IMG/VR virus record: IMGVR_UViG_3300017605_000570
Span: 1 to 57,338 of that record
Direction: 5' to 3' (one strand)
Length of the DNA stretch: 57,338 nucleotides
Origin: a virus
This document shows positions 6,803 through 51,201 of this stretch, one piece after another (positions within the stretch are counted from its first letter, which is position 1; each line of letters opens with the position of its first letter). The notes beneath the pieces are model-generated. The model was not told the DNA's origin. It saw only the letters and a list, made by a program, of their open reading frames with translations, and ran no database searches. Made by a program: the position numbers and the translations under genes.

Positions 6803-6837
6803 AAAACGGCCCCGGCCGTGTGGGCGACCGGGGCCGT
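6803..6837 (-). terminator. Intrinsic terminator (minus strand)
   Basis: Perfect 10-bp stem ACGGCCCCGG/CCGGGGCCGT (6806-6837) followed on the minus strand by TTTT. It would insulate the regulator gene from transcription arriving from the right. Confidence 0.6.
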
Positions 6838-7126
6838 CAGTGATCGAGCGGCGTGTGGGGGCCGCTCGTTGGAGCCGTGGTCGTCCGCATTGGGGCCTTA
6901 CCGTGTGAGGGGGCGGCAGCCAGCAGACACCTACTGCGCTCGGGCACCGAATGCGTAACACCAGCGCAACGGATTCGACAAGCGGTTGCGATCGGTGAAG
7001 ACGTCGTTAATCGAATCGCACAGAAAAGGGGGCAGCGCGGTGGGTGCCGCGCTGCCCCCGATGGGCAGATCAGGACGCCCTGGCCCTGGAAGGCCCGCGT
7101 CCTCGGATGGCAAGAGGAGCCTCGCC
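6838..7126. other. Non-coding divergent control region
   Basis: No convincing gene. It separates the leftward regulator from the rightward replication gene and holds a GAGCGG/CCGCTC hairpin (about 6845-6868), a weak plus-strand promoter candidate (TTGCGA at 6986-6991, TAATCG at 7008-7013, 16-bp spacer) and the terminator at 7024-7059. Confidence 0.4.
7024..7059 (-). terminator. Intrinsic terminator (minus strand)
   Basis: Perfect 13-bp stem GGGGGCAGCGCGG/CCGCGCTGCCCCC with a 6-base loop, followed on the minus strand by TTTTCTG. It would stop antisense read-through from the replication region; on the plus strand it would be a strong 5' leader hairpin. Confidence 0.6.
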
Positions 7127-8194
7127 ATGGCGAAAAGCTATGATTCAAACCGCCCTCGCACGCAAGCCAAATCCAGCTGGATAGCGGTCTCTCGCGATCT
7201 CGCCTCGCATCCGATCGTCGGCGAGGAGGTTCAACCACCGAGGCCCGCCGACCCTAAGCGCGCCGCGTGGTTTCCCATCATGGTGTGGGAGTGGATGCTT
7301 CGCGAGGCGGCGTTCGACAACCGCACGTGCCGCTTCCTCGGCAAAGACTTCGCCCTCGATCGCGGCCAGCTGGCCGCCGCGCAGAACTTCCTCGCCACCA
7401 AGGCGAACTGGACGCGGTCGGCGGTGCGCATCTTCCTCGCCAAATTGGAGCGCGAGGGGATGATACAAATCAGCGTCCCGATCGAGGTGCAGAAGGGGCA
7501 ATTAGGCCTGAATCTGCACAGCCAGGGTCACAGCCAGGGTCACAGCCAACCCACCACCATCTTAACCATTTGTAACTACGACAAATTCCAGGCTCGCCCA
7601 AAGATGAACAGCCAGGGTCACAGCCAGGGTCGCGCCAGAGTCAATACAAGTGACAACAGACAAGAGGACTCTCTAGTCGGTCCGTTGGAACAACAGAGTC
7701 CTGTAGCAGAGCAGAATCGATCGATTGCTTCGCGGACCGACGGTGCCCATGGCGATCGCCTGCCCTTCACCGAGCAATCCCTCGCGGCGTGCGAACAGAT
7801 GGGCTTTACGAGAGAGACGATCGTTGCCCGGTACTACGAACGCACGGCCAGGCGGCGCTCGCCGGTTCGGGATCCCAGCGCCTACCTGATCGCGATCGCG
7901 GTCGACCTGGCCAGCAAGGCCCGCGGCGTGCCGGCTGACGCGGTCCGGCAGTCGATCAGCAAGAGCACCGAGGAGCGCCAGGCCGGCCAGGCGCAGGTCA
8001 CCGGCGCGGCGCGCGAGCCAAGCCATGACTGCCTCGAGCGCGTGCGCCGGCGATGCGAGACGCGCGGGCTGATGGTCACGGCGCTGGTCGCCGCCTGGCA
8101 GCAGCGCACCAAAGGCGCCACGGTCCTGAAGCCCGACGCCAACCTCGAGGCCTTCGCGCAATGGTGGTTCGACAAGCAGCGAGGCGCCGCGTGA
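7127..8194 (+). CDS. Replication initiator/replisome organiser-like protein
   Basis: 355 residues behind AGAGGAG. The N-terminal third is winged-helix-like (FPIMVWEWMLREAAF, then RGQLAAAQNFLATKANWTRS and VRIFLAKLEREGMIQI, about 45-120), as in phage replisome organisers. The middle (about 130-195) is low-complexity with SQGHSQGHSQ repeats, encoded by iteron-like DNA; the C-terminal part has a helical domain ending in a Trp-rich AQWWFDKQRG. By analogy to lambda O the gene may contain the replication origin. Confidence 0.65.
   Translation: MAKSYDSNRPRTQAKSSWIAVSRDLASHPIVGEEVQPPRPADPKRAAWFPIMVWEWMLREAAFDNRTCRFLGKDFALDRGQLAAAQNFLATKANWTRSAVRIFLAKLEREGMIQISVPIEVQKGQLGLNLHSQGHSQGHSQPTTILTICNYDKFQARPKMNSQGHSQGRARVNTSDNRQEDSLVGPLEQQSPVAEQNRSIASRTDGAHGDRLPFTEQSLAACEQMGFTRETIVARYYERTARRRSPVRDPSAYLIAIAVDLASKARGVPADAVRQSISKSTEERQAGQAQVTGAAREPSHDCLERVRRRCETRGLMVTALVAAWQQRTKGATVLKPDANLEAFAQWWFDKQRGAA
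7517..7630. repeat. Iteron-like repeats, candidate replication origin
   Basis: Four 12-bp repeats CACAGCCAGGGT (7517-7528, 7529-7540, 7607-7618 with one change, 7619-7630) plus a partial at 7541-7548 flank a relatively AT-rich segment (about 7555-7592). Repeats inside an initiator-like gene next to an AT-rich block are the plan of lambda-type origins. Confidence 0.5.
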
Positions 8195-8430
8195 TGGCGC
8201 TCCCCAGCAACAAGGCCATGCGGGAATCGGCTTACAAGGCGATCGAAGCCTTTGGGGCAAGGCCGATACCATGCACGGTGTTCTCAGAAAAAATGATGCG
8301 AGCACCAGGTTCAGGCGAGTGCGTCGCATTTCCCGTGCGGCCCGCATCGCCCTCGGGCTCCCGCTCCACGTCGGTGTCGACGATCGCGATCTGGAACGTG
8401 CCCGTTACTATCGCGCCCTCGAGCAGCTGA
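8194..8430 (+). CDS. Possible small ORF overlapping next gene
   Basis: ATG 8194 overlaps the TGA of the initiator gene (GTGATGG). The first 40 codons (MALPSNKAMRESAYKAIEAF at the start) look protein-like, but the last half overlaps the 8271 gene by 160 bases and has Ser/Pro-rich composition. It may be a real short protein or a decayed N-terminus of the next gene displaced by a frameshift. Confidence 0.3.
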   Translation: MALPSNKAMRESAYKAIEAFGARPIPCTVFSEKMMRAPGSGECVAFPVRPASPSGSRSTSVSTIAIWNVPVTIAPSSS

Positions 8431-9083
8431 TCGCCCGCGAGGCACGCGAAGCCGATCTGAAGCCGCTCGCCCAGATCGGCTTTGATGGTCGGCCGGCGCC
8501 GAAGCTGATCGCCACACTCGAGCACCCCGACAACGAGGGGCTCACCGATCAGCAGCGGCGCGATCTCGACGGCGGCTATATCGCGATGCGCAACACCACG
8601 AGCTCGCCGCTCGACTATTTCTACTTCCAGAGCAAGACCGGCATCGCCTTCTGGGAATGGATCGCCGGCAAGCGCTTTGAGTACGATTGGCATATCGCCT
8701 CGAGCGGGCATGCGCTCACGCAAAGCCTGCAGTCGCTGATGCTGGCGAAGGTTTCCAAGCTCACTCGATCCGAATTGAGGGACCGGCGATTGCGCCCGCG
8801 CACGTTCAAGCCGCGCGGCGCCAAGCGCATCAAGGCCTCGCCCACATCGATCAGCGACAACAAGCTCGACGCCATGGCCAGGCTCGGGCGCCTCTGCGAT
8901 TCCGTGAGCAACGTCTCATGGTTTCTGCTGCAGGAGATCGTGGGGAAAGAGCGGACAGCGCGCGACGTGGCGTTGCAGCTGCGCGAGACTCCCGACTACA
9001 TCGGCCGGCGCTTCCGCGAGTCTCTGACCGAGGCAGCGGCGCACTATCGACTAGGACCAAGCAGCCGGCCGAGGGACACATGA
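8271..9083 (+). CDS. Hypothetical phage protein, 270 aa
   Basis: Basic N-terminus, a central segment (RDLDGGYIAMRNTTSSPLDY, about 103-122, then FYFQSKTGIAFWEW) and a C-terminal helix-turn-helix-like stretch (ARDVALQLRETPDYIGRRF, about 233-251). It could be a DNA-binding partner of the initiator, but I do not recognise the family. The start is supported only by a weak AAGG; it overlaps the following gene by ATGA. Confidence 0.6.
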   Translation: MHGVLRKNDASTRFRRVRRISRAARIALGLPLHVGVDDRDLERARYYRALEQLIAREAREADLKPLAQIGFDGRPAPKLIATLEHPDNEGLTDQQRRDLDGGYIAMRNTTSSPLDYFYFQSKTGIAFWEWIAGKRFEYDWHIASSGHALTQSLQSLMLAKVSKLTRSELRDRRLRPRTFKPRGAKRIKASPTSISDNKLDAMARLGRLCDSVSNVSWFLLQEIVGKERTARDVALQLRETPDYIGRRFRESLTEAAAHYRLGPSSRPRDT

Positions 9084-9921: not shown

Positions 9922-9935
9922 TTGTTAACCTCGCT

Positions 9936-10015
9936 GGCTGCTCATCAGGCCATGGCCACCACGCCATGACGACCAGGGGCGAGCGCAGGAGCACCCACGC
10001 CGCCCGAGGTTTCGC
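9936..10015 (-). ncRNA. Hammerhead ribozyme E1 (type II)
   Basis: Core GAAA, GUC and CUGAUGA intact; cleavage expected between 9971 and 9970. Stem I GUCAUGGC/GCCAUGGC, loop GUGGUG, flank GCAGCC. Stem III is atypical: two CC/GG pairs, a 2x2 internal loop, GGGCG/CGCCC and a large loop, so it may fold less well than the other copies. Separates the genes at 10017-11021 and 9667-9921. Confidence 0.8.
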
Positions 10016-10016
10016 G

Positions 10017-11021
10017 TCACCGGCCCCGCGCCACCTTGAGGTGGATCACGTTGCCATCCTTCCACTCGGAGATCAGACCAGCGTCGCGCCACCGCGACCG
10101 CCAACGTGTGACGGTCGCCGGGTCAACACCGAAGCGGGCAGCCAAGGCCGCGTTCTGCACGCGCAGCTTCCCACCGTTCCGGCTGATCTCACCAAGCGCC
10201 CATTGCAGCGCTCGCTGCTCAGGGCTGAGTCCAACGTCGTCAGCTTCGACGTCTTGCTCATCGGTGCGACCGCTCCGCAGAAGCGCCATGCCGAAGCACG
10301 ACACGAGCTCCATCGCACCGCCTGCCAGCCATGTCAGGGCCAGCAGCAACGTCGCCTCATTCCACCCGGTTGCCCGCGAAAGAACCTCGATCTGAGGATC
10401 TGCGGCGGCTGGCCTGGCGGAACCGTCGAGCACCTTGCGTGCGTCGCCGATCCGGGACTCCAGATCAGCGGCGCGTCTCGACTTGGCGATCTGCTCACGT
10501 ATGCGCTGGGCGGGCTCGCATGCTTCCCGTGACGCGGCCTTCGACACGTCGGTGCACTTTGCAGTGCGCCTCCATACGTCGACCGGCACGGTGGTTTCGA
10601 GTCTCGCCTCGAGGCTGGCCACGGGCTCGACTTGCCCGAGAGATGCCAACTCGGCCCGCGCCTTGCTGTAGGCGTCGGCCGCGCGGTCATGAGCACCCAT
10701 CACGTGCTCGCGTCCGCTTCCCGTGTCCTTGCGCAGTTTGAGCAACATGCCGTCGACCGCGATCATCGAGACCACGGCCAGCAGGCATGCAGTGACGCCC
10801 GACCCGAGCATCGCCCCGTAGCGACGTTCCCGCACGGCGTCGGCCGCCGTCGAGAACATCAGGGTTTTGACCAGGTCGAGCGCTGCCGCGAAGCCGGCGA
10901 GGCCGATAGAAGTCGCAAGGCTCGGCGCCCACTCGGCATAGTAGAACGCGGACAGCGCAGCGCTGCCCACGCAGACGACGCCCACCGCAACGCGCGATGG
11001 GCTTGGCAATGAAAGCTGCAT
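10017..11021 (-). CDS. Array gene 23: membrane protein with C-terminal HTH, 334 aa
   Basis: By far the largest protein of the array. Hydrophobic segments at about residues 9-28, 34-50 and 69-90, a charged coiled-coil region at about 100-215, a further span at about 228-252, then a soluble tail with a winged-helix/HTH reading (ALAARFGVDPATVTRWRSRW, about 297-316). It may sit in the inner membrane and present a DNA-binding domain in the cytoplasm. ATG 11021 follows AGAGGTGA; an upstream ATG lies inside the ribozyme and was rejected. Confidence 0.7.
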   Translation of the reverse strand: MQLSLPSPSRVAVGVVCVGSAALSAFYYAEWAPSLATSIGLAGFAAALDLVKTLMFSTAADAVRERRYGAMLGSGVTACLLAVVSMIAVDGMLLKLRKDTGSGREHVMGAHDRAADAYSKARAELASLGQVEPVASLEARLETTVPVDVWRRTAKCTDVSKAASREACEPAQRIREQIAKSRRAADLESRIGDARKVLDGSARPAAADPQIEVLSRATGWNEATLLLALTWLAGGAMELVSCFGMALLRSGRTDEQDVEADDVGLSPEQRALQWALGEISRNGGKLRVQNAALAARFGVDPATVTRWRSRWRDAGLISEWKDGNVIHLKVARGR

Positions 11022-11035
11022 GTAATCACCTCTTT

Positions 11036-11098
11036 CGCTGCTCATCAGGCACCAGGCGCGACCCTGGTGCGACGCGCGGGTTGCCCCGCGCGTTTCGC
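11036..11098 (-). ncRNA. Hammerhead ribozyme E2 (type II)
   Basis: Stem III CGCGCGGG with GCAA cap; GUC, cleavage between 11071 and 11070; stem I GCACCAGG/CCUGGUGC, loop GUCGCG; CUGAUGA; flank GCAGCG (covarying pair with the loop). The G of the upstream gene's TAG stop is the first base of the ribozyme. Confidence 0.93.
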
Positions 11099-11304
11099 TA
11101 GATCAGGCGGATATCGAGGACGGTCGACCCGTCCGTGAGCATTTGCTCGACCAGCTTCGCCCTGTCGAAGTCGACGCATTCGGCGTTCAGCACGTAGACG
11201 TTTTCAAGGTCCACATTCTGCTCCTGCAGGGACAGCAGGAATTTCAGCAAGTCGGCTGCGCACGTCAGATCGTTCTCGACCACCACCTTGTACTGCTCTG
11301 GCAT
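11098..11304 (-). CDS. Array gene 22, 68 aa, unknown
   Basis: Acidic small soluble protein (starts MPEQYKVVVENDL; ends STVLDIRLI) that looks alpha/beta. Reads from an ATG behind GAGGTGA just after hammerhead E3, ends with TAG overlapping E2. Unknown function. Confidence 0.65.
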   Translation of the reverse strand: MPEQYKVVVENDLTCAADLLKFLLSLQEQNVDLENVYVLNAECVDFDRAKLVEQMLTDGSTVLDIRLI

Positions 11305-11314
11305 GTGTCACCTC

Positions 11315-11375
11315 GGCTGCTCATCAGGCCTCGCCAACCACGACGAGGCGACGCGCGGTTGCCCGCGCGTTTCGC
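11315..11375 (-). ncRNA. Hammerhead ribozyme E3 (type II)
   Basis: Stem III CGCGCGG, GCAA cap; GUC, cleavage between 11350 and 11349; stem I GCCUCGUC/GGCGAGGC, loop GUGGUU; flank GCAGCC. Overlaps the upstream TAG by one base. Confidence 0.93.
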
Positions 11376-11611
11376 TACAGTTCGGCGACGATCAGCCCGG
11401 AATAGCCGAGCAAAAGATCGTAGCGCTTGCCGTCCCACGGCACCCCGCGCCACACCCACCACCCGTCGTGATCCTTGCGCGGCTTGATGCCGGCTTCGAG
11501 CGCGACGTGCATCAACACGCGCCAGCGCGTATCGCTGCGATCTTGCGAGTCACCGCAAGGGATGGCGGCATAGTCCGGATTGTTCAGGGCCGGATCGAGC
11601 GAAATACTCAT
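11375..11611 (-). CDS. Array gene 21, 78 aa, unknown
   Basis: Soluble, Trp-rich middle (DGWWVWRGVPWDGKRYDLLL, about 49-68). ATG 11611 behind GAAAGGA. Resembles small proteins often found in accessory regions of alphaproteobacterial phages; unknown function. Confidence 0.65.
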   Translation of the reverse strand: MSISLDPALNNPDYAAIPCGDSQDRSDTRWRVLMHVALEAGIKPRKDHDGWWVWRGVPWDGKRYDLLLGYSGLIVAEL

Positions 11612-11626
11612 GTGCTTGTCCTTTCG

Positions 11627-11686
11627 GGCTGCTCATCAGGACCGGCGAACCACCGCCGGCCGACGGGGCAAGGCGCCCCGTTTCGC
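11627..11686 (-). ncRNA. Hammerhead ribozyme E4 (type II)
   Basis: Stem III CGGGGC/GCCCCG with a GCCUU loop; GUC, cleavage between 11662 and 11661; stem I GGCCGGCG/CGCCGGUC (one G-U), loop GUGGUU; flank GCAGCC. Confidence 0.92.
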
Positions 11687-12003
11687 TATGTGAACCACGC
11701 GATGAGGATTGCGACCGCCATCGCGATCAGCACCCCGAGGTGCGTTCCGCGCTTGCGTGCCTTGTCGCTCAACTCAGGGACCGGCAGGCCGGTCTCTGCA
11801 TCCTCACCACGCGCGCGTCTGCGGTCCTGAATCGCAAACGTGGCGCCCTCGGTCGCCCGAGGCTCGCGGTATTTGGTTTCGAGGTACGCATTCCACGCTC
11901 CCCAATCTTCAGCGGCAAAGGTTACCGCCTTCTTACGATTGGCAACCGCGTATGCGTTCCAGGCCTCGATTGACGGCCATTGCTGGCGTCGATCCAACTG
12001 CAT
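11686..12003 (-). CDS. Array gene 20: tail-anchored protein, 105 aa
   Basis: Hydrophilic, charged first 85 residues (EAWNAYAVANRKKAV near the start) and one C-terminal membrane span (LGVLIAMAVAILIAWFT), predicting a tail-anchored inner-membrane protein. ATG behind GAGGTGA; TAG overlaps E4. Confidence 0.65.
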   Translation of the reverse strand: MQLDRRQQWPSIEAWNAYAVANRKKAVTFAAEDWGAWNAYLETKYREPRATEGATFAIQDRRRARGEDAETGLPVPELSDKARKRGTHLGVLIAMAVAILIAWFT

Positions 12004-12016
12004 GACTCACCTCATT

Positions 12017-12075
12017 GGCTGCTCATCAGGGATGCGCCACCACGCGCACCCGACGCGGGTTGCCCCGCGTTTCGC
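12017..12075 (-). ncRNA. Hammerhead ribozyme E5 (type II)
   Basis: Stem III CGCGGG/CCCGCG, GCAA cap; GUC, cleavage between 12052 and 12051; stem I GGGUGCGC/GCGCAUCC, loop GUGGUG; flank GCAGCC. Abuts the upstream TGA directly. Confidence 0.93.
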
Positions 12076-12393
12076 TCACAACAGCGACTCTTCCAGCGCC
12101 GCAATGCGATCGACAAAGTCGACGGGCAGGGAAATTTCCTCGCCGTCGTCATAGAGCCAATACGCTTGCGCCGTATCGGCGAGGAACTCAGTCAACACGA
12201 CGTTGAGCGCGACCGCGTGATAGAACGAGCCATTGCTGGCCTGCTCTTTCACGTAGGCGACCGCGTCAGCATCGGTTGCGAAAAGCACCTCGCTTTGATC
12301 GTCGCGCTGAATCTCGGCGCCACGATTGTCGCTGTTCATGATGCACCAGCCCTCGGAAAGCGCCCGGGCCTGGTTGAACTTGGCAAGTCTCAT
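12076..12393 (-). CDS. Array gene 19, 105 aa, unknown
   Basis: Soluble acidic protein (MRLAKFNQARALSEGW at the start; ends AALEESLL). ATG 12393 was chosen over a longer reading because it follows GGGTGA and the longer reading runs through the ribozyme. Unknown function. Confidence 0.65.
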   Translation of the reverse strand: MRLAKFNQARALSEGWCIMNSDNRGAEIQRDDQSEVLFATDADAVAYVKEQASNGSFYHAVALNVVLTEFLADTAQAYWLYDDGEEISLPVDFVDRIAALEESLL

Positions 12394-12407
12394 CTGTTCA
12401 CCCTTTC

Positions 12408-12464
12408 GGCTGCTCATCAGGCGATGGCCACCACGCCACCGCGACCGGCCGAAGCCGGTTTCGC
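12408..12464 (-). ncRNA. Hammerhead ribozyme E6 (type II)
   Basis: Stem III CCGGC/GCCGG with a UUCG cap; GUC, cleavage between 12443 and 12442; stem I GCGGUGGC/GCCAUCGC, loop GUGGUG; flank GCAGCC. Confidence 0.93.
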
Positions 12465-12661
12465 TACGCTTTCGCGTTTCCATAGTGCGCGGCGCGCGCA
12501 TGCTTCAGCCCGTAGGCCTCGCGTGCACGCTTGGCGCCTTCCGATGCGCCGGAGAACTCGGCGAACAGCAAAGGCTGATCGCCATGGCTCACCCACTCCC
12601 ACGCGCCCGGCTCGCGCCGATCGGCAGGATCATCACACCGGATTCCATAGAGCTTCTGCAT
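12464..12661 (-). CDS. Array gene 18, 65 aa, unknown
   Basis: MQKLYGIRCDDPADR start after GAGGTG. Small soluble protein with a central WEWVSHGDQPLLFAEFSGA and a helical basic end. Similar short proteins with a one-sheet, one-helix look are frequent in phages. Unknown function. Confidence 0.65.
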   Translation of the reverse strand: MQKLYGIRCDDPADRREPGAWEWVSHGDQPLLFAEFSGASEGAKRAREAYGLKHARAAHYGNAKA

Positions 12662-12673
12662 GTTGCACCTCAT

Positions 12674-12734
12674 CGCTGCTCATCAGGCGATGGGCGCGAC
12701 CCCATCGCGACGCGCAGTTGCCCGCGCGTTTCGC
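12674..12734 (-). ncRNA. Hammerhead ribozyme E7 (type II)
   Basis: Stem III CGCGCGG/CUGCGCG (one G-U) with GCAA cap; GUC, cleavage between 12709 and 12708; stem I GCGAUGGG/CCCAUCGC, loop GUCGCG; flank GCAGCG, again the matching variant. Confidence 0.93.
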
Positions 12735-12908
12735 TCAGTGATTGACGAAATACGTCACAAGCGCCGGATCGGCGTCGACCAGCACGAACACATCAGCGAG
12801 CGTCGCTAGTGCTATTGCTGGCGTCTCAGCAGACTCGAGAGCCGAAGCGACGAAAAGCCTATCGCCGCGCGCCCATGCGTCTGCCAATTCTTGCGTCGAG
12901 TAGTTCAT
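12735..12908 (-). CDS. Array gene 17, 57 aa, unknown
   Basis: MNYSTQELADAWARGD start; acidic and Ala-rich, soluble. ATG 12908 lies after the GAGGT site; an ATG at 12920 is part of the leader and was not used. TGA abuts E7. Unknown function. Confidence 0.6.
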   Translation of the reverse strand: MNYSTQELADAWARGDRLFVASALESAETPAIALATLADVFVLVDADPALVTYFVNH

Positions 12909-12920
12909 TGCTAACCTCAT

Positions 12921-12977
12921 CGCTGCTCATCAGGCCACCCGCGCGACCAGGTGGCGACCGGCCGAAGCCGGTTTCGC
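12921..12977 (-). ncRNA. Hammerhead ribozyme E8 (type II)
   Basis: Stem III CCGGC/GCCGG with UUCG cap; GUC, cleavage between 12956 and 12955; stem I GCCACCUG/CGGGUGGC (one U-G), loop GUCGCG; flank GCAGCG. Confidence 0.93.
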
Positions 12978-12981
12978 TGGT

Positions 12982-13179
12982 TCACCCCACGAAGACCTTG
13001 CCGCACGTGTTGCCGTTGATGTCCCGCAGGCGGTGCTTGCCGCCATGCCAGCACATTTCTTGCAACCCGTCGTCGCGGTCGAGCTTGGTGGCGAGCTCGC
13101 GAAGCATGCGCGCCACCTCTGCCGCCCGCGATTCCTCGAAAGCGGCGTTGCCCATGTCGATCGTGATCGTGATCTTCAT
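12982..13179 (-). CDS. Array gene 16: conserved small phage protein, 65 aa
   Basis: MKITITIDMGNAAFEESRAA start and a LRDINGNTCG box near the end. This small protein, with a helix (AAEVARMLRELATKL) between two strands, is recurrent in many unrelated phages, usually among accessory early genes; function unknown. Ends 5 bases before E8. Confidence 0.7.
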   Translation of the reverse strand: MKITITIDMGNAAFEESRAAEVARMLRELATKLDRDDGLQEMCWHGGKHRLRDINGNTCGKVFVG

Positions 13180-13193
13180 CTGTTCACCTCATC

Positions 13194-13256
13194 GGCTGCT
13201 CATCAGTGCCGGCGAACCACCGCCGACAGACGCGCGAGTTGCCCCGCGCGTTTCGC
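13194..13256 (-). ncRNA. Hammerhead ribozyme E9 (type II)
   Basis: Stem III CGCGCGGG/CUCGCGCG with GCAA cap; GUC, cleavage between 13229 and 13228; stem I UGUCGGCG/CGCCGGCA, loop GUGGUU; flank GCAGCC. Confidence 0.93.
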
Positions 13257-13435
13257 TATTCCTCGCTGTCGTCTTCGTCCTCATCCTCATGAGTGAAGAA
13301 CTCATTGGCGTGGGCCATGTCGGCCACGTCATCCTCGCTCATGTATTTGAGGCAGGCCATAATGACCGTGTCGCGGTCCAATAGCCCTTCCTCGACGGCT
13401 TCAAGGATTTTGTTGGTCACCTTGCGGCTCTGCAT
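13256..13435 (-). CDS. Array gene 15: acidic small phage protein, 59 aa
   Basis: MQSRKVTNKILEAVEEGLLD start, VIMACLKYMSEDDVADMA middle, then a run of Asp/Glu to the end. All-helical. Related short proteins occur in many phages; function unknown, and an acidic tail of this type can mimic nucleic acid. ATG behind AAAGGTGA; TAG overlaps E9 by one base. Confidence 0.65.
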   Translation of the reverse strand: MQSRKVTNKILEAVEEGLLDRDTVIMACLKYMSEDDVADMAHANEFFTHEDEDEDDSEE

Positions 13436-13448
13436 GTTTCACCTTTGT

Positions 13449-13509
13449 GGCTGCTCATCAGGCGTGCGGAACCACCCGCACGCGACGCGCGATTGCTCGC
13501 GCGTTTCGC
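13449..13509 (-). ncRNA. Hammerhead ribozyme E10 (type II)
   Basis: Stem III CGCGCGA/UCGCGCG with GCAA cap; GUC, cleavage between 13484 and 13483; stem I GCGUGCGG/CCGCACGC, loop GUGGUU; flank GCAGCC. Confidence 0.94.
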
Positions 13510-13785
13510 TCACTTCATGGTGCGCGGAAGGCTGAAACCATCCATCGCGTCGTCAGTCACTTGGACGAAAACGTAGTCTCCGTTCCGCGTGACGCCACCA
13601 TGCCAGACGCCGCCCCATCCCAATTTGCTCACCAATGCCATCGCCGCGAGGCGAGCATTGACGCGCGGGTTAGCGCTGTCGTCTTGGTCAACAGTCTTGG
13701 CCCCCGCGGCGCACGACGCACGCCAACGGTTTTCCATGTTGCGCTCTGTCGGCCCGACAAAACGCACGGTTATCGCTTGTCTCAT
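13510..13785 (-). CDS. Array gene 14, 91 aa, unknown
   Basis: MRQAITVRFVGPTERN start, RWRASCAAG middle, and a WGGVWHGGVTRNGDYVFVQV strand-rich end. This pattern (small protein reading VRFVGPT...RW.A.) is found in other phages and may bind nucleic acid, but function is unknown. TGA abuts E10. Confidence 0.68.
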   Translation of the reverse strand: MRQAITVRFVGPTERNMENRWRASCAAGAKTVDQDDSANPRVNARLAAMALVSKLGWGGVWHGGVTRNGDYVFVQVTDDAMDGFSLPRTMK

Positions 13786-13799
13786 GTGTTCACCTCATC

Positions 13800-13862
13800 G
13801 GCTGCTCATCAGTGCCGCGGCACCACCCGCGGCAGACGCGAGCCTCGCGGCCCGCGTTTCGC
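13800..13862 (-). ncRNA. Hammerhead ribozyme E11 (type II)
   Basis: Stem III CGCGGGCC/GGCUCGCG (one G-U) with GCGA cap; GUC, cleavage between 13835 and 13834; stem I UGCCGCGG/CCGCGGCA, loop GUGGUG; flank GCAGCC. Confidence 0.93.
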
Positions 13863-14051
13863 TTAATCGTTGTATTTCTCGATCCGGCCGAGCTTGCCGA
13901 GCCGCGCGAGCGGCCCATCCGTTTGGGCCGCCTGAGCTTCCGCGAGCGTTGCAAATCGCTTTGCTTCGCTGCGCTTGAAGCTCCATTCGCCGCGCGCCGT
14001 CAGAAAGCACGTGACGCCCCACGCATTGGCGCTTTCGATCGTGTAGTGCAT
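13863..14051 (-). CDS. Array gene 13, 62 aa, unknown
   Basis: MHYTIESANAWGVTCFLTAR start, then a basic FKRSEAKRFATLAEAQAAQ helix. Small alpha/beta protein of unknown function. ATG behind GAGGTGA; TAA abuts E11. Confidence 0.62.
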   Translation of the reverse strand: MHYTIESANAWGVTCFLTARGEWSFKRSEAKRFATLAEAQAAQTDGPLARLGKLGRIEKYND

Positions 14052-14064
14052 TGGTCACCTCATT

Positions 14065-14125
14065 GGCTGCTCATCAGGCCTCGGGCACCACCCCGAGACG
14101 ACCGGGCCTTTCGGCCCGGTTTCGC
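14065..14125 (-). ncRNA. Hammerhead ribozyme E12 (type II)
   Basis: Stem III CCGGGCC/GGCCCGG with GAAA cap; GUC, cleavage between 14100 and 14099; stem I GUCUCGGG/CCCGAGGC, loop GUGGUG; flank GCAGCC. Preceded by TT rather than A before GCGAAA. Confidence 0.93.
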
Positions 14126-14127
14126 AA

Positions 14128-14487
14128 TCACGCTGCAGTCAGAAGGCGTGGCATATCCGCAGGGTTGACGTAGAACGACAACCCCATGTCCTTGCCGCAA
14201 AACATCGAGTGACGAACGCACACGGCGCCTTGCGGCACCGGCACCGTCTGCCCCTCGGCCGTCTGATTCCACGGCGCGACCTGGTTGTGCTTGTCGGCCG
14301 AGCCGATCGGCTCGCCCGCGAGCGTGCATGTGCGATACTGCGAACGCGAGCCGCCCGACCAGTTCAGGTCGTGCAGCGTGACATGCGCCGCGGCATACAC
14401 ACGAAACTTGCGACCCCGGTAAGCCGGGAAAGTAGCGCGCACCAGGCGCTCGACCTGGGCGCGCGTCGCTTTGATGGGCTCTTGCAT
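14128..14487 (-). CDS. Array gene 12, 119 aa, conserved phage protein
   Basis: ATRAQVERLVRATFPAYRGR (about 8-27) followed by KFRVYAAAHVTLHDLNWSGG, then a glycine/threonine-rich domain. The arrangement resembles a family of small proteins found in many phages and plasmids; function unknown. ATG behind GAGGTGA. Confidence 0.68.
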   Translation of the reverse strand: MQEPIKATRAQVERLVRATFPAYRGRKFRVYAAAHVTLHDLNWSGGSRSQYRTCTLAGEPIGSADKHNQVAPWNQTAEGQTVPVPQGAVCVRHSMFCGKDMGLSFYVNPADMPRLLTAA

Positions 14488-14500
14488 GTGTCACCTCATT

Positions 14501-14561
14501 GGCTGCTCATCAGGCGCCGGGAACCACCCCGACGCGACGCGCGGTTGCCCGCGCGTTTCGC
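14501..14561 (-). ncRNA. Hammerhead ribozyme E13 (type II)
   Basis: Stem III CGCGCGG/CCGCGCG with GCAA cap; GUC, cleavage between 14536 and 14535; stem I GCGUCGGG/CCCGGCGC (one U-G), loop GUGGUU; flank GCAGCC. Confidence 0.94.
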
Positions 14562-14846
14562 TTAGTTCGCCTTCACCGGGCGCATGCTCTCACGGAACAC
14601 CGCTTCCGATAGGTCCGTGCCCCATCGCGCCAGCGCGACATCGCCGGCCACATTGGCGTGCGCGGAACGAACCGCGACGCCAGCTGCAGCAAGTCCGCGG
14701 CAATAGGCTTCGCAGGTCCGGAAGTCCGACTGCAAAAGCCGCTTGCGGCCACCCGTGGGTGACACGACGTCCCAATCGAAGTTTGAGACCGCGAACACGT
14801 TGGCAATGCCGCACTGGTAGACAAGCACGGCGCGTTCAATCTGCAT
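14562..14846 (-). CDS. Array gene 11, 94 aa, unknown
   Basis: MQIERAVLVYQCGIANVFAV start; alpha/beta, with a helix containing DFRTCEAYCRGLAAAGVAV (about 41-59). No motif recognised. TAA abuts E13. Confidence 0.65.
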   Translation of the reverse strand: MQIERAVLVYQCGIANVFAVSNFDWDVVSPTGGRKRLLQSDFRTCEAYCRGLAAAGVAVRSAHANVAGDVALARWGTDLSEAVFRESMRPVKAN

Positions 14847-14859
14847 GGTTCACCTCATT

Positions 14860-14918
14860 GGCTGCTCATCAGTGACCAGGCACCACCCTGGCCAGACGGG
14901 CCTTGCGGCCCGTTTCGC
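14860..14918 (-). ncRNA. Hammerhead ribozyme E14 (type II)
   Basis: Stem III CGGGCC/GGCCCG with GCAA cap; GUC, cleavage between 14895 and 14894; stem I UGGCCAGG/CCUGGUCA, loop GUGGUG; flank GCAGCC. Confidence 0.94.
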
Positions 14919-15094
14919 TAGTGCATCGAGACGCCTACCGCGTCGCGCGCGATGCGCTCCGCCTCGCCGTTCCCGAAACCGACTTCGACCAAATGAAACG
15001 CGACCGCCTCAACGGTGTCGACCGGATCGCAACCAAATTGCTCGGCATCGCCGATCAGGGTCGAGATCAGTTCAACGGTTGAATCGCTCAGCAT
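14918..15094 (-). CDS. Array gene 10, 58 aa, unknown
   Basis: MLSDSTVELISTLIGDAEQF start, acidic and all-helical. ATG behind GAGGTGA, TAG overlapping E14. Too short for a confident family call; reading frame supported by position between two ribozymes. Confidence 0.6.
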   Translation of the reverse strand: MLSDSTVELISTLIGDAEQFGCDPVDTVEAVAFHLVEVGFGNGEAERIARDAVGVSMH

Positions 15095-15108
15095 GTTGTC
15101 ACCTCATT

Positions 15109-15170
15109 GGCTGCTCATCAGATCGCGGGAACCACCCCGCGATGACCGGGCCAACGCGGCCCGGTTTCGC
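15109..15170 (-). ncRNA. Hammerhead ribozyme E15 (type II)
   Basis: Stem III CCGGGCC/GGCCCGG with a GCGUU loop; GUC, cleavage between 15144 and 15143; stem I AUCGCGGG/CCCGCGAU (perfect), loop GUGGUU; flank GCAGCC. Confidence 0.95.
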
Positions 15171-15251
15171 TCATTTGATCGTCAGCACCAGCGCCATAGG
15201 CGTTAGCGCCACGATCAGCGGGCAGATTGAGAGAAGCAGATCGAGAAACAT
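15171..15251 (-). CDS. Array gene 9: membrane micropeptide, 26 aa
   Basis: Very short ORF (MFLDLLLSICPLIVALTPMA at the start) that is almost entirely one hydrophobic span. It has its own GAGGTG site and is flanked by its own pair of ribozymes, which argues that it is a real gene rather than chance. TGA abuts E15. Could be a toxin-like or regulatory membrane peptide. Confidence 0.5.
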   Translation of the reverse strand: MFLDLLLSICPLIVALTPMALVLTIK

Positions 15252-15265
15252 AGCTGCACCTCACT

Positions 15266-15326
15266 GGCTGCTCATCAGGCCGCGGGAACCACCCCGCGAC
15301 GACCAGGCCGCAAGGCCTGGTTTCGC
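15266..15326 (-). ncRNA. Hammerhead ribozyme E16 (type II)
   Basis: Stem III CCAGGCC/GGCCUGG with UUGC loop; GUC, cleavage between 15301 and 15300; stem I GUCGCGGG/CCCGCGGC, loop GUGGUU; flank GCAGCC. Confidence 0.94.
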
Positions 15327-15327
15327 T

Positions 15328-15645
15328 TCAGTCGACGACGTTGAACTCGGCAATGCAAAAGTCGCGCTTGTACGTGCCCGCGCGCTCCTCTTTCTGGCCG
15401 CCGCGATCGGAACCGAAGAACATCCGATATCCAGCGTCCATTTTCGCCACCTCATCGCGCGACATGCGGGCATGACTCGCGAAACTCGGGGGGCGATACG
15501 CCGACAGCCATTTGCGCTTGGCAGGCTTTGCCTTTTTGAGCTTGCGCGTGCGCGGTGCAGGCTTGGCAATCTTGTCAGGCTTGCACCATGCGAAGCGAGC
15601 CGCGAAGTCGGACTCGCAGTGATTCAACGGCACGAATTGTCCCAT
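15328..15645 (-). CDS. Array gene 8: basic protein, 105 aa
   Basis: Lys/Arg-rich centre (TRKLKKAKPAKRKWLSAYRP, about 33-52) between two less charged parts; probably nucleic-acid-binding. Unknown family. ATG behind GAGGTGA. Confidence 0.62.
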   Translation of the reverse strand: MGQFVPLNHCESDFAARFAWCKPDKIAKPAPRTRKLKKAKPAKRKWLSAYRPPSFASHARMSRDEVAKMDAGYRMFFGSDRGGQKEERAGTYKRDFCIAEFNVVD

Positions 15646-15659
15646 AGTCTCACCTCATT

Positions 15660-15718
15660 GGCTGCTCATCAGTAGCCGGGCACCACCCCGGCTAGACGGG
15701 CCTCGCGGCCCGTTTCGC
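15660..15718 (-). ncRNA. Hammerhead ribozyme E17 (type II)
   Basis: Stem III CGGGCC/GGCCCG with GCGA cap; GUC, cleavage between 15695 and 15694; stem I UAGCCGGG/CCCGGCUA (perfect), loop GUGGUG; flank GCAGCC. Confidence 0.95.
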
Positions 15719-15930
15719 TATGCGCTGAACACGACGGTTTCGCCGTCGATAGTGTGCGCCGCGCGCTTGCTCAGCAATTCGTGCGCGGCTTGCTCCGGAA
15801 TCTTCCACCCATCGCACAGCACGCGCACCATGTTGGCGCGGTCCCGCTTGAAGGCGTAGCCGTTGATTGCCCATGCGACGATGCCGGGCGCGTAGATCAT
15901 CGGCGACGAACCGAGGCGATATGTCTGCAT
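15718..15930 (-). CDS. Array gene 7, 70 aa, unknown
   Basis: MQTYRLGSSPMIYAPGIVAW start, then a helical part (EQAAHELLSKRA) and a short strand end. ATG behind GGGTGA. Unknown function; TAG overlaps E17 by one base. Confidence 0.62.
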   Translation of the reverse strand: MQTYRLGSSPMIYAPGIVAWAINGYAFKRDRANMVRVLCDGWKIPEQAAHELLSKRAAHTIDGETVVFSA

Positions 15931-15947
15931 GTGTTCACCCTTTTTTC

Positions 15948-16017
15948 GGCTGCTCATCAGGCACCAGGCACCACCCTGGCACGACCGCGCGCGACCTTTC
16001 GGCCGCGCGGGTTTCGC
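15948..16017 (-). ncRNA. Hammerhead ribozyme E18 (type II)
   Basis: Longer stem III (CCCGCGCGGCC paired with GGUCGCGCGCGG, bulged, GAAA cap); GUC, cleavage between 15983 and 15982; stem I GUGCCAGG/CCUGGUGC, loop GUGGUG; flank GCAGCC. Confidence 0.9.
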
Positions 16018-16173
16018 TCATCTGTAGGCCACAAACTGATAGGCCAGCACCGCGGACACACCGCCGGAGAACAGCGCCATAGCGACGTTCCCATCTACCA
16101 GGTTACTTGCGCAGACTAGCGCGTTCACCAGGAGCACAGCGACGTGAACCACGGTTTCGGTTGTCGACCACAT
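16018..16173 (-). CDS. Array gene 6: small membrane protein, 51 aa
   Basis: MWSTTETVVHVAVLLVNALV start; two hydrophobic segments (about 8-24 and 28-47). ATG behind GAGGTGA, TGA abutting E18. Function unknown. Confidence 0.58.
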   Translation of the reverse strand: MWSTTETVVHVAVLLVNALVCASNLVDGNVAMALFSGGVSAVLAYQFVAYR

Positions 16174-16188
16174 TGACTCACCTCATTT

Positions 16189-16245
16189 GGCTGCTCATCA
16201 GGCGCCAGCAACCACGCTGACGCGACCGGCCGAAGCCGGTTTCGC
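16189..16245 (-). ncRNA. Hammerhead ribozyme E19 (type II)
   Basis: Stem III CCGGC/GCCGG with UUCG cap; GUC, cleavage between 16224 and 16223; stem I GCGUCAGC/GCUGGCGC, loop GUGGUU; flank GCAGCC. Confidence 0.94.
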
Positions 16246-16455
16246 TTAGGTGATCTTGATGGTCGCATCCGTGTCCGCTTGCGCGGGCACGTCTACGCTC
16301 ACCTCCTGAACCGTCGGCTCGGGCACCTCGACCGTGAACACGACCTTGCGGATCGGCTGCTCATTGTCGAGATCGTCGTGGCTTTCGTTGCCGTCCACCA
16401 CGGCGCGGGTGTTGCCATCGCCGTCAACCCAGATTTCAATCGTCAGAGATGCCAT
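16246..16455 (-). CDS. Array gene 5: acidic protein, 69 aa
   Basis: MASLTIEIWVDGDGNTRAVV start; Asp/Glu-rich and beta-strand-like throughout (VVFTVEVPEPTVQEVSVDV). ATG 16455 was chosen over a longer reading that crosses the ribozyme. Unknown; strongly acidic beta proteins of this size include DNA mimics, but that is speculation. Confidence 0.62.
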   Translation of the reverse strand: MASLTIEIWVDGDGNTRAVVDGNESHDDLDNEQPIRKVVFTVEVPEPTVQEVSVDVPAQADTDATIKIT

Positions 16456-16471
16456 TGCATAACCCCTTTTC

Positions 16472-16528
16472 GGCTGCTCATCAGGACCGGGCCACCACGC
16501 CCGGCCGACCGGCCGAAGCCGGTTTCGC
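16472..16528 (-). ncRNA. Hammerhead ribozyme E20 (type II)
   Basis: Stem III CCGGC/GCCGG with UUCG cap; GUC, cleavage between 16507 and 16506; stem I GGCCGGGC/GCCCGGUC, loop GUGGUG; flank GCAGCC. Confidence 0.94.
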
Positions 16529-16532
16529 TGGT

Positions 16533-16676
16533 TTATAGCTTGCTCGCGAACCACCGCCCGACCGCTTCAAGGCCGTGCAGGAAGGTTGCGACGCCCACGC
16601 CCACCAATGCGGCGGCAAACGCCGTGATGGATGCGAGCCCCACGCAATAGAAAAAAGCGCTTGCAAACTCTGCCAT
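16533..16676 (-). CDS. Array gene 4: small membrane protein, 47 aa
   Basis: MAEFASAFFYCVGLASITAF start; one long hydrophobic stretch (about 5-34) followed by an amphipathic end. ATG behind AAAAGGG. Unknown function. Confidence 0.55.
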   Translation of the reverse strand: MAEFASAFFYCVGLASITAFAAALVGVGVATFLHGLEAVGRWFASKL

Positions 16677-16692
16677 GTGTTCAACCCTTTTC

Positions 16693-16753
16693 GGCTGCTC
16701 ATCAGGCCGGCGGAACCACCCGCCGACGACCGGGCCTTGCGGCCCGGTTTCGC
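16693..16753 (-). ncRNA. Hammerhead ribozyme E21 (type II)
   Basis: Stem III CCGGGCC/GGCCCGG with GCAA cap; GUC, cleavage between 16728 and 16727; stem I GUCGGCGG/CCGCCGGC, loop GUGGUU; flank GCAGCC. Confidence 0.94.
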
Positions 16754-16945
16754 TTAGCGTCGTCGCCGCGCCAGCCGCACAGGCCAGCACAGCGACCAGG
16801 CAAGGCCAAGCACGAAGCGCTCGACCAGCCAAACGACCACGAGCAACGTGCCCGTGACCGTCCAACCGAATGCGAGCGCCGCTAGGAACACGTAGACCGT
16901 TCCTAGTGCCGGGCCACTGTCGACAACAAAACGAACGATTGACAT
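16754..16945 (-). CDS. Array gene 3: small membrane protein, 63 aa
   Basis: MSIVRFVVDSGPALGTVYVF start; two membrane spans (about 16-45 and 45-57) and a C-terminal RLARRRR that should lie in the cytoplasm. ATG behind GAGGTG; TAA abuts E21. Confidence 0.58.
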   Translation of the reverse strand: MSIVRFVVDSGPALGTVYVFLAALAFGWTVTGTLLVVVWLVERFVLGLAWSLCWPVRLARRRR

Positions 16946-16959
16946 TGAACACCTCGTTT

Positions 16960-17031
16960 AGCTGCTCATCAGGCCATGGGCACCACCCCATGGCGACGCG
17001 CGCGAGCGTTCATGCTCGCGGCGCGTTTCGC
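16960..17031 (-). ncRNA. Hammerhead ribozyme E22 (type II)
   Basis: Long stem III (GCGCCGCGAGC with GCUCGCGCGCGC, AUGAAC loop, one asymmetry); GUC, cleavage between 16995 and 16994; stem I GCCAUGGG/CCCAUGGC, loop GUGGUG; flank GCAGCU, which still pairs G-U with the loop. Confidence 0.9.
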
Positions 17032-17139
17032 ACTCAGCTGTTTCAAGGTGCCGAGTAGATTCCGGAGGCCTACAGCGCAGGAAGCCAGCTAGGCTATGCA
17101 GCTGCGGATATCTCGCGGACGCTCGGCCAATCACCTATC
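17032..17139 (-). pseudogene. Empty slot of the array (decayed gene or spacer)
   Basis: The 108 bases between ribozymes E23 and E22 have an AGGTGA site but no ATG-led frame: the only reads are a 13-codon TTG frame and a GTG frame that runs into E22. All other slots hold a gene. It is either the remnant of a deleted gene or a non-coding processed RNA. Confidence 0.45.
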
Positions 17140-17200
17140 GGCTGCTCATCAGTGCCCGGGCACCACCCCGGACAGACCGGGCGTTGCCGCCCGGTTTCGC
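17140..17200 (-). ncRNA. Hammerhead ribozyme E23 (type II)
   Basis: Stem III CCGGGCG/CGCCCGG with GCAA cap; GUC, cleavage between 17175 and 17174; stem I UGUCCGGG/CCCGGGCA, loop GUGGUG; flank GCAGCC. Confidence 0.94.
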
Positions 17201-17205
17201 TTGGT

Positions 17206-17397
17206 CTAGCGTTCCATCGTTTCGCGGCTTTCGCCGTCGCTCAGGTGCCCACCGTCGCGGATCATACCGCCCGCTAGGTGAAGCCCGAACGCCAGCGCGC
17301 CGCCTACCAGCGCCCAGCCCGGCGAGAAAATCCCGCCGATTGCCGTGCCACCGGAGACGATCAGAACGCTCTGGAGAGTCGCTTTCACGAACTGCAT
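17206..17397 (-). CDS. Array gene 1: small membrane protein, 63 aa
   Basis: First gene of the array. MQFVKATLQSVLIVSGGTAI start; glycine-rich hydrophobic segment(s) at about 9-46, then a charged end (DGESRETMER). ATG 17397 behind GAGGTG. Could be holin-like by shape, but function is unknown. Confidence 0.6.
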   Translation of the reverse strand: MQFVKATLQSVLIVSGGTAIGGIFSPGWALVGGALAFGLHLAGGMIRDGGHLSDGESRETMER

Positions 17398-17413
17398 TGA
17401 ACACCTCGTTTTT

Positions 17414-17518
17414 GGCTGCTCATCAGGCAAGCGGAACCACCCGCTTGCGACGCGATCGACCATTGTGCGTGCAGTTTAAGGCCTCGCGGCCGGCACGCCT
17501 CAGTTAATCGCGTTTCGC
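17414..17518 (-). ncRNA. Hammerhead ribozyme E24 (type II, leader copy)
   Basis: Core intact; GUC, cleavage between 17449 and 17448; stem I GCAAGCGG/CCGCUUGC, loop GUGGUU; flank GCAGCC. Stem III CGCGAU/AUCGCG carries a branched insert of about 55 bases (GCGUGC/GCACGC arm with GGCC-GCGA-GGCC inside). It sits upstream of the first gene, so the leader itself is cut off. Confidence 0.88.
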
Positions 17519-17735
17519 TTCCCGATATCACGGCACATGAGTTGCTTTTGTTCTTCATGCCGTGTCGGATCACCTTCGCCTGCGGCCTCTTGGCTTGCAC
17601 TCTGTCACCACATCCACGTGCTTGGCCGCTGCAGGGACTTACCTGCAGGCAGATGAGTATCTGCCCTTCTTACCGTAGGCCGATCGTGTGTGATTAGGAG
17701 ATTCGCAGGACTGGGTTTTGGATCACCCCGTCAGT
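17519..17735 (-). promoter_or_regulatory. Structured 5' leader of the array
   Basis: About 215 bases between the predicted start site and E24. Holds a CACGGCA/TGCCGTG hairpin (17529-17564) and two abutting perfect hairpins, CTGCAGG/CCTGCAG (17629-17648) and GGCAGAT/ATCTGCC (17648-17665). A short ATG frame starting near 17561 runs into E24 and is not convincing as a gene. Confidence 0.45.
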
Positions 17736-21231: not shown

Positions 21232-22338
21232 ATGACAGCTTGGACCCCGCCGAAAGGCGGCATGGACGCAAAGCAGCTGGCCACGCGCATGGGGACGCTG
21301 AAGCTCCCGACGATGCGCATGGATCAGATCACGCCTTACGAGAACAACCCGCGCAAGCGGACGGCCGAGGCGATCAAAAAGCTGGCCGATACGATCTCGA
21401 TGGTCGGCTTTAACGTGCCGATCGGCGTCGACGAGAAGGGTGTGATCCTCTACGGGCACGGCCGGCGCATGGCCGCCGAGCTCATCGGCCTCAAGATCGT
21501 GCCGACGCTGGTGATCCCGGGGCTCACCGAAGCGCAGAAGACCGCGTTCCGGATCTCGGACAACCGCGCCAGCGAAGAATCCGAGTGGGACAACACCAAA
21601 CTGCGCGAGGAGCTCGCCGAGCTCGCCAAGGGGCTCGAGGGCAGCGAGGCACTGCTGGCGGCGACGGCCTTCGACCTCGAGGACCTGTCGAAATGGGGCG
21701 ATGAGCTCGGCTTGACGCTGCCGGGCGAGGTCGAAACCCCGAATTTGGAGGCCAAAAAGCCCCAAAAACCGGAGAAAACGGGCTCTGAGGAGCCTAAAAA
21801 GACCCCAAAAAGGGCCTTCCTGACGAGCATTTTCGACACCGGCGGCGACGTCGAGGCGCTCTGCAAACAGCTGCTCGAGATGGGCTCGCCGCCCGATGGA
21901 GCGGTGTTTTCGCCGTTCGCGATGCTTGCGGAGGCCCAAAACGCTGCAGCGGCCTTGAAACGGCGGCTCTATGCCGGCCCGATCGACCCGGCGCAGGCCG
22001 ATCTGGTCTTCGACATGGCGCTGGCGTTCCCGACGGCGCCGTCGATCGACACGTTCCAGGCCTGGTCGGCCGACTACGAGGGCCGGATCACCCAGACGAT
22101 CGCGCGGCTGAAGCCCGGCGGCATGGTCGCGCTGCTGATCGGCGACGTCAGACGCGCCGACGGCGCCTATCTCGGGTTGCCGTGGCTCACGGTCGAGTTT
22201 TTCCTGCGCGCCGGCGCGACTCTCTCGGAGTCAGCGGTCTACGTGATGCCGACGGGCGACGTTTCTGAGGTCCCGCCGGCGGGCCAGCTACTGCTGGCGC
22301 ACGCGAATCTGCTGATATTCCGTAAACCGGGATCCTGA
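21232..22338 (+). CDS. ParB-like protein fused to methyltransferase-like domain
   Basis: 368 residues. Residues about 28-105 form a ParB N-terminal domain (ITPYENNPRKRT, then GHGRRMAAELIGL). A charged linker follows (about 165-195). The C-terminal half (about 255-365: IARLKPGGMVALLIGDVRRA, GLPWLTVEFFLRAG, HANLLIFRKP) has the layout of the C-terminal half of a DNA adenine/cytosine methyltransferase, but no DPPY/NPPY motif IV is visible, so this part may be inactive. Confidence 0.65.
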   Translation: MTAWTPPKGGMDAKQLATRMGTLKLPTMRMDQITPYENNPRKRTAEAIKKLADTISMVGFNVPIGVDEKGVILYGHGRRMAAELIGLKIVPTLVIPGLTEAQKTAFRISDNRASEESEWDNTKLREELAELAKGLEGSEALLAATAFDLEDLSKWGDELGLTLPGEVETPNLEAKKPQKPEKTGSEEPKKTPKRAFLTSIFDTGGDVEALCKQLLEMGSPPDGAVFSPFAMLAEAQNAAAALKRRLYAGPIDPAQADLVFDMALAFPTAPSIDTFQAWSADYEGRITQTIARLKPGGMVALLIGDVRRADGAYLGLPWLTVEFFLRAGATLSESAVYVMPTGDVSEVPPAGQLLLAHANLLIFRKPGS

Positions 22339-34159: not shown

Positions 34160-34219
34160 AGCGACGCCGACGGGGCGTAAAGCGACGCCGACGGGGGCCA
34201 CCTTGGCCCCCGTTTCCAT
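34149..34219 (+). repeat. Tandem 22-bp repeat followed by terminator-like hairpin
   Basis: GGCGTAAAGCGACGCCGACGG occurs twice in a row after the sheath stop (34153-34195); the second copy duplicates the stop region. GGGGGCCA-CCTT-GGCCCCC and TTTCC follow (34193-34219), a weak terminator. Confidence 0.55.

Positions 34220-45971: not shown

Positions 45972-48046
<2,075 letters not shown>

Positions 48047-48047
<1 letters not shown>

Positions 48048-49243: not shown

Positions 49244-51201
<1,958 letters not shown>

Follow-up and report, generated by a model that had tools for sequence, protein, structure and literature searches.

Replication origins lying within the gene of their own initiator are a known kind among phages, represented by lambda O, gene 18 of phage L, gene 43 of Sf6 and probably ORF20 of 80alpha. 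The iterons in lambda O are described together with an adjacent AT-rich tract (PMC7466680). For phage L, direct 11-bp repeats TGTCCAACGGA in gene 18 have been proposed as the origin (PMC8022706). The Sf6 record carries a putative lambda-like rep_origin annotated in gene 43, just after the second wing strand of the encoded protein; the gene contains six 11-mers, arranged three plus three in 11-bp steps with a 44-bp jump. A deletion of 80alpha ORF20 is reported not to be complementable in trans, suggesting an embedded origin, and the SPP1 protein G38P is reported to bind oriL within gene 38 (PMC5499656 for both).

Here we analyze a viral DNA of 57,338 nucleotides (IMG/VR record IMGVR_UViG_3300017605_000570), referred to throughout as the window. 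Judging from the sequence, one of its genes very probably contains the phage replication origin and encodes the initiator as well, the product of this gene binding the putative iterons head to tail (Table 1).

Like gene 18 of phage L and gene 43 of Sf6, the initiator gene of the window has direct 11-bp repeats right after the wing strand; their sequence is different, however, and they are spaced 12/12/11 bp apart. As in lambda O, the iterons lie in the middle of a gene for a winged-helix initiator and are followed by an AT-rich tract. Lambda differs in having four 18-bp iterons, which start 20-24 bp apart and lie after the domain, whereas the 11-bp sites of the window are 11-12 bp apart and two of them fall within the wing codons; the locus therefore does not represent lambda O/ori-lambda in the strict sense. 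With 80alpha ORF20 and SPP1 gene 38 it shares the probable placement of the origin within the initiator gene. In PVL, the only staphylococcal phage whose repeats we compared, orf46 contains 11-bp repeats, one of them in the wing, and no helicase or loader gene is annotated beside it.

Inspection of 15 genes revealed clear wing-codon copies in the cultured Sulfitobacter phage pCB2047-A and in PVL, Palmer and Vibrio 1.182.O. No such copies were seen in lambda, Chronis, ENT47670 or, unlike in the window, in Sf6 and the P22-like ST64T, and in the other six genes they were absent or unclear. Among open-access PMC papers dealing with origins inside initiator genes, we found nothing on iterons in wing codons. 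An array whose sites double as wing codons and keep register across the strand would be a variant for which no description was found.

Genomic context and the initiator gene

The window comes from a tailed phage and encodes a terminase, portal protein, head protease, major head protein and tail sheath, along with an exonuclease, a methyltransferase and a RuvC-like resolvase. It contains no tRNAs, and a comparison of its first 25 kb with phage records gave no near relative. The terminase genes are immediately preceded by an ORF (21232-22338) whose product matches PHROG families of ParB-like proteins and DNA methyltransferases. A perfect 21-bp tandem repeat (2.1 copies, 34153-34196) begins where the tail-sheath gene ends and extends into the intergenic gap that follows. 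On the minus strand, positions 9932-17520 hold a very dense array of type II hammerhead ribozymes (Rfam RF02276), 24 in number and scoring 45-72 bits against a gathering score of 37. There is about one ribozyme for each small ORF on this strand, and one transcript might thereby be cut into many messages. The copy at 16478-16528 shares 90% identity with a segment of Streptomyces phage Marav.

The ORF at 7127-8194 is a genuine gene, judging from its ATG after AGAGGAG and from the match of the N-terminal part of its product to DnaD-like helicase loaders (phrog_2514, E 7.7e-11). Further PHROG matches of this class were obtained with phrog_186 (3e-5) and phrog_7498 (2e-4), and the match to O-like initiators was weak (phrog_391, 0.011). 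No Pfam DnaD/DnaB_2 C-terminal domain was listed for the protein at E up to 1, and it does not appear to be a cellular DnaD in the strict sense. The AlphaFold2 model, built on a 56-row alignment (mean pLDDT 72.8), shows a confident winged helix with the recognition helix at residues 97-109, a strand at 113-116, a low-confidence wing loop and a second strand at 144-148. A PDB sequence search and Foldseek returned only generic winged-helix regulators and unrelated chains, with weak E-values. By tblastn, the protein matches the SL25 replication protein, whose gene adjoins a helicase gene.

An adjacent helicase or loader gene, which is frequent beside embedded origins and not strictly defining for them, seems to be missing from the window: none was recognized among the ORFs scanned, and for the next ORF (8271-9083) neither a significant family match nor any relative was obtained. 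Upstream of the initiator gene lie two strong 13-bp hairpins (7028-7059 and 6806-6837), each with a loop of 6 nt, which are possible terminators or attenuators between oppositely directed genes.

Table 1. Features of the initiator gene and its surroundings (positions in the window)
Feature	Position	Strand	Remarks
Likely ribosome-binding site	7114..7119	+	AGAGGAG region, from the sequence; before ATG at 7127
Initiator gene	7127..8194	+	355 aa; N-terminal winged-helix domain, DnaD-like/O-like replication protein
Recognition-helix codons	7415..7453	+	residues 97-109 in the AF2 model; helix start holds the covarying positions
Wing-loop codons	7475..7555	+	residues 117-143; enlarged and low-confidence in the AF2 model; contain putative iterons 1 and 2
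Putative iteron 1	7520..7530	+	AGCCAGGGTCA; 0 mismatches; wing-loop codons
Putative iteron 2	7532..7542	+	AGCCAGGGTCA; 0 mismatches; wing-loop codons
ICNYDKFQ codons	7568..7591	+	conserved second wing strand, invariant or near-invariant in alignments; interrupts the array
Putative iteron 3	7610..7620	+	AGCCAGGGTCA; 0 mismatches; 3' of the conserved strand
Putative iteron 4	7622..7632	+	AGCCAGGGTCG; 1 mismatch; 3' of the conserved strand
Putative iteron 5	7633..7643	+	CGCCAGAGTCA; 2 mismatches; out of frame with the others; 3' of the conserved strand
Candidate unwinding element	7637..7726	+	AT-rich; same place AT-rich in relatives, third positions included

Direct repeats in the initiator gene

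The first-pass annotation had described four nearly identical 12-bp repeats in this gene, and all four were found: the 12-mer CACAGCCAGGGT occurs at 7517-7528, 7529-7540, 7607-7618 (one mismatch) and 7619-7630. It had missed a fifth copy, which follows the fourth after 11 bp in another frame, and the better unit is 11 bp with a spacing of 11-12. In these terms, the gene contains five near-identical 11-mers (consensus AGCCAGGGTCA) whose starts lie 12, 78, 12 and 11 bp apart; the first two lie in the codons of wing-loop residues 132-139, and the remaining three follow the LTICNYDKFQ strand. The array is a modest one, of five copies with two mismatches in one of them, and an exact search of viral contigs for its 22-nt double repeat gave no match.

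A single 12-mer is not rare at two or fewer mismatches (about 4.4 expected in shuffles), even if the whole 57 kb contains only one other, two-mismatch site for CACAGCCAGGGT. It is the clustering that is rare: an 18-mer spanning two units has four matches within three mismatches, three of them in the cluster, against 0.07 expected. Among 892 overlapping 255-nt segments, the iteron cluster scored highest outside 46.3-50.1 kb, and all 21 segments that outscored it consist of repetitive coding sequence in that region. The region (46300-50100) carries several large plus-strand ORFs of Gly-rich, collagen-like composition with 9/18/27-bp periods, which perhaps encode tail-fiber or decoration proteins.

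A repeat that is translated could also be a feature of the peptide, and relatives were therefore needed beyond significance within the window. According to this explanation, a low-complexity HSQG linker has grown by slippage and the DNA repeats are its by-product. It accommodates the shared reading frame of four of the five copies, whose translations are near-identical SQG(H) peptides, and the fact that the arrays sit in poorly ordered protein. The out-of-frame fifth copy already speaks against it.

Repeats in related genes

Protein and pattern searches, together with phage records, yielded 110 distinct genes with an ICNYDKYQ-type core. Of these, 96 were long enough, and 82 were left (the first set) after genes with 75% identity or more in the scored segment had been dropped. 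They were picked by core peptide or homology, not by repeats, and comprise the window, one species-genome locus (L015; a distant relative, the only one in that collection), two phage records (L016, L017) and otherwise viral contigs. A second set, based on other core variants (at least 217 loci and at least 199 candidate genes), contributed 93 genes non-redundant with each other and with the first set; all its results refer to the matches listed. A tblastn search with one family member (L129) found Sf6 gene 43, the O proteins of HK75 and other phages, and P22-like gp18.

Direct repeats spaced 11-12 bp occupy this segment in the 82 non-redundant genes too, each lineage having its own repeat sequence; they mostly begin in the wing-loop codons and resume beyond the conserved ITICNYDKYQ strand. 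When wing-loop codons (-25 to -3) were compared with downstream codons (+8 to +50), the best ungapped DNA match averaged 11.59 within genes and 6.61 between genes, and the highest of 5000 permutations reached 7.38. Control segments gave small excesses (helix/downstream 6.41 vs 6.13; wing/far downstream 6.62 vs 6.42; helix/far downstream 6.91 vs 6.54). By excess over other genes in the wing/downstream match, the window ranks third of the 82. Reverse-complement matches showed almost no excess (5.85 vs 5.73), and iterons in inverted orientation were rejected for this reason. In the second set, the wing/downstream match was 9.68 within genes against 6.88 between them.

The frame of the copies is where the peptide explanation encounters difficulties. 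Among the 40 first-set genes scoring at least 11, 21 have the match in frame and 19 out of frame, the latter reading the same DNA into unrelated peptides (e.g. L052, L150, L002 and L070); in the second set, 22 of 33 such genes are out of frame. Frame-breaking spacings of 11 bp outnumber those of 12 bp (98 vs 68 in the first set, where these two account for most spacings, and 165 vs 55 in the second), and the SQGH peptide, into which the first-pass annotation saw the repeats translated, is not conserved across the family.

The best 11-mer family (codons -30 to +55) was tested against 60 dinucleotide shuffles and 60 synonymous recodings of each gene. It scored above every shuffle in 68 of the 82 genes and above every recoding in 62, so that synonymous recoding loses the repeats in most genes; both nulls were beaten in 60, leaving 22 that failed to exceed every shuffle and recoding. 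At p<=0.05, 67 of the 82 pass both nulls, and in 60 of these a copy precedes the core by 9-75 nt. Two genes, L013 and L015, have no array at all. In the second set, 67 of 93 genes pass the synonymous and codon-shuffle nulls at p<=0.05, 45 of them with a wing copy, and 26 failed one or both. Autocorrelation within the zone peaks at lags 11, 12, 22 and 23, and again at 78, 90 and 102; control zones are without the 11-bp peak.

As the repeats occupy the same place in relatives, with different sequence and often out of frame, it is the DNA that is kept. On these sequence comparisons, what is conserved is DNA in direct orientation and not the peptide, and the comparison of frames is the strongest evidence for this. 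A tandem peptide-repeat domain was rejected on account of the out-of-frame copies and the synonymous recoding, and we regard slippage of an HSQG linker as a very improbable origin of the repeats.

Register of the copies across the wing strand

The copies are placed on a common grid, in a register of about 11.25 bp that continues across the conserved strand. In the 67 significant first-set genes, they pile up near -52, -40 and -28 nt from the core and then near +38, +50, +62, +73 and +84, and none starts from -12 to +16. Copies flank the strand on both sides in 61 genes, and the distances spanning it cluster near 44, 55, 66, 78 and 90 nt. The phase concentration peaks at a period of 11.25 with R 0.70, a statistic that ignores shared descent, and in 2000 trials with in-frame jitter of up to 6 nt R did not exceed 0.48. 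Phase agreement with the 66-nt class extends to the 32 genes that do not belong to it (p 0.0002, shared descent again being ignored).

Covariation of the recognition helix with the repeats

That the encoded protein may bind the repeats is indicated indirectly, by covariation between repeat sequence and recognition helix. Only downstream copies entered this test, and overall winged-helix identity was regressed out, shared ancestry being taken into account via that regression only. In the first set (65 genes), the best of 73 columns for repeat similarity were -29, -25, -54 and -28. Three of them (-29, -25 and -28) lie at the start of the recognition helix, and -54 lies outside it. Among pairs less than 30% identical, only -25 and -24 of the helix stay in the top ten, together with -31 at its edge.

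The helix positions had been fixed before the second set was assembled, and there the top columns, among the matches listed, were -28, -24 and -25 of 69, with -29 sixth. Across the sets they were -25, -24 and -28 of 73, with -29 again sixth. By this sequence test, the covariation is replicated and a simple residue-to-base code is not: an explicit code drawn from the first set, likewise fixed beforehand, was obeyed by only 3 of 9 genes of the second set (by 1 of 6 carrying K at -29 together with D/E at -25, by the single gene carrying L/V/P at -29 together with Q at -25, and by 1 of 2 carrying E at -29 together with R at both -25 and -24).

Covariation would look identical for an operator. The repeats could thus be binding sites of the protein for autoregulation (by roadblock or repression) or for partition, the origin being elsewhere, and an intragenic site could conceivably act as a roadblock. 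Several observations weigh against this. Relatives are annotated as replication proteins, some encoded next to helicase genes, and an origin is annotated in Sf6 and was inferred genetically in 80alpha. Moreover, a further element follows the array family-wide, as in lambda (see below). We consider autoregulation or partition quite unlikely and prefer an embedded origin.

Candidate unwinding element and GC skew

The first-pass annotation had pointed to the AT-rich segment between the two halves of the array. This segment is present, but its AT content is mainly that of the conserved codons for LTICNYDKFQ. We rejected it as an unwinding element, for which the A-rich stretch downstream is the better candidate. 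Positions 7637-7666 have an AT fraction of 0.60 and an A minus T of 0.40 (window mean AT 0.35), and the two 30-nt blocks that follow have AT 0.47 and 0.53. Across the family, codons +30 to +40 are 0.157 above the locus in AT and 0.208 above the gene mean in third-position AT, with a strong excess of A over T; the corresponding values in 34 GC-rich cases are 0.214 and 0.316. The richness extends over codons +30 to +50, third positions included, and since these are AT-biased too, the bias does not come only from the choice of amino acids. On this composition, the unwinding element is likelier to lie downstream of the arrays than between them.

Cumulative GC skew, which had been suggested as a check, gave no support for an origin, as the curve for the 57-kb window passes through a local maximum near 7 kb instead of the minimum. 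This lack of an origin signal would suit autoregulation or partition. However, gene strands switch near 7 kb too, so that the skew there is confounded, and we set it aside as uninformative.

Proposed mechanism and meaning

In its main proposal, of lambda-like origin iterons in a winged-helix initiator gene with overlapping protein and DNA functions, the first-pass annotation is supported by the comparison with relatives. Sites in one orientation, about one DNA turn apart, suggest head-to-tail binding of winged-helix monomers, as reported for BldC (PMC11963761). The winged-helix domain would bind each 11-bp iteron as a monomer, in one orientation, and form a head-to-tail nucleoprotein array over the wing codons and the linker codons that follow. 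Strain imposed by such an array might open the A-rich stretch that adjoins it downstream, and the replicative helicase would be brought in by the C-terminal part of the initiator or by a partner protein. We infer this by transfer of the lambda scheme, in which an iteron array is followed by opening of its AT-rich side and by the helicase (PMC7466680).

Two of the window's five putative iterons double as coding sequence for the wing loop with which the DNA-reading domain is equipped. A wider proposal, which we advance tentatively as a real possibility, is that a large and widespread family runs its array in one register of ~11 bp through the wing codons of its own initiator. Part of the surface with which the protein grips the origin would then be written in copies of the gripped site, with the invariant wing strand as the sole interruption, and site, wing and recognition helix would change together, so that origin specificity could turn over quickly as a self-contained unit. 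If this is true, the repeat sequence may become predictable from the helix residues.

To our knowledge, the replication origin is not known for most phages from the environment; copies at fixed distances from the ICNYDKYQ codons would let origins be located by sequence in many contigs. With site and reader varying together within one kilobase, the family might constitute a natural test bed for changes in the specificity of winged-helix initiators, and it offers a clear case of a coding sequence that doubles as the probable binding site of its own product.
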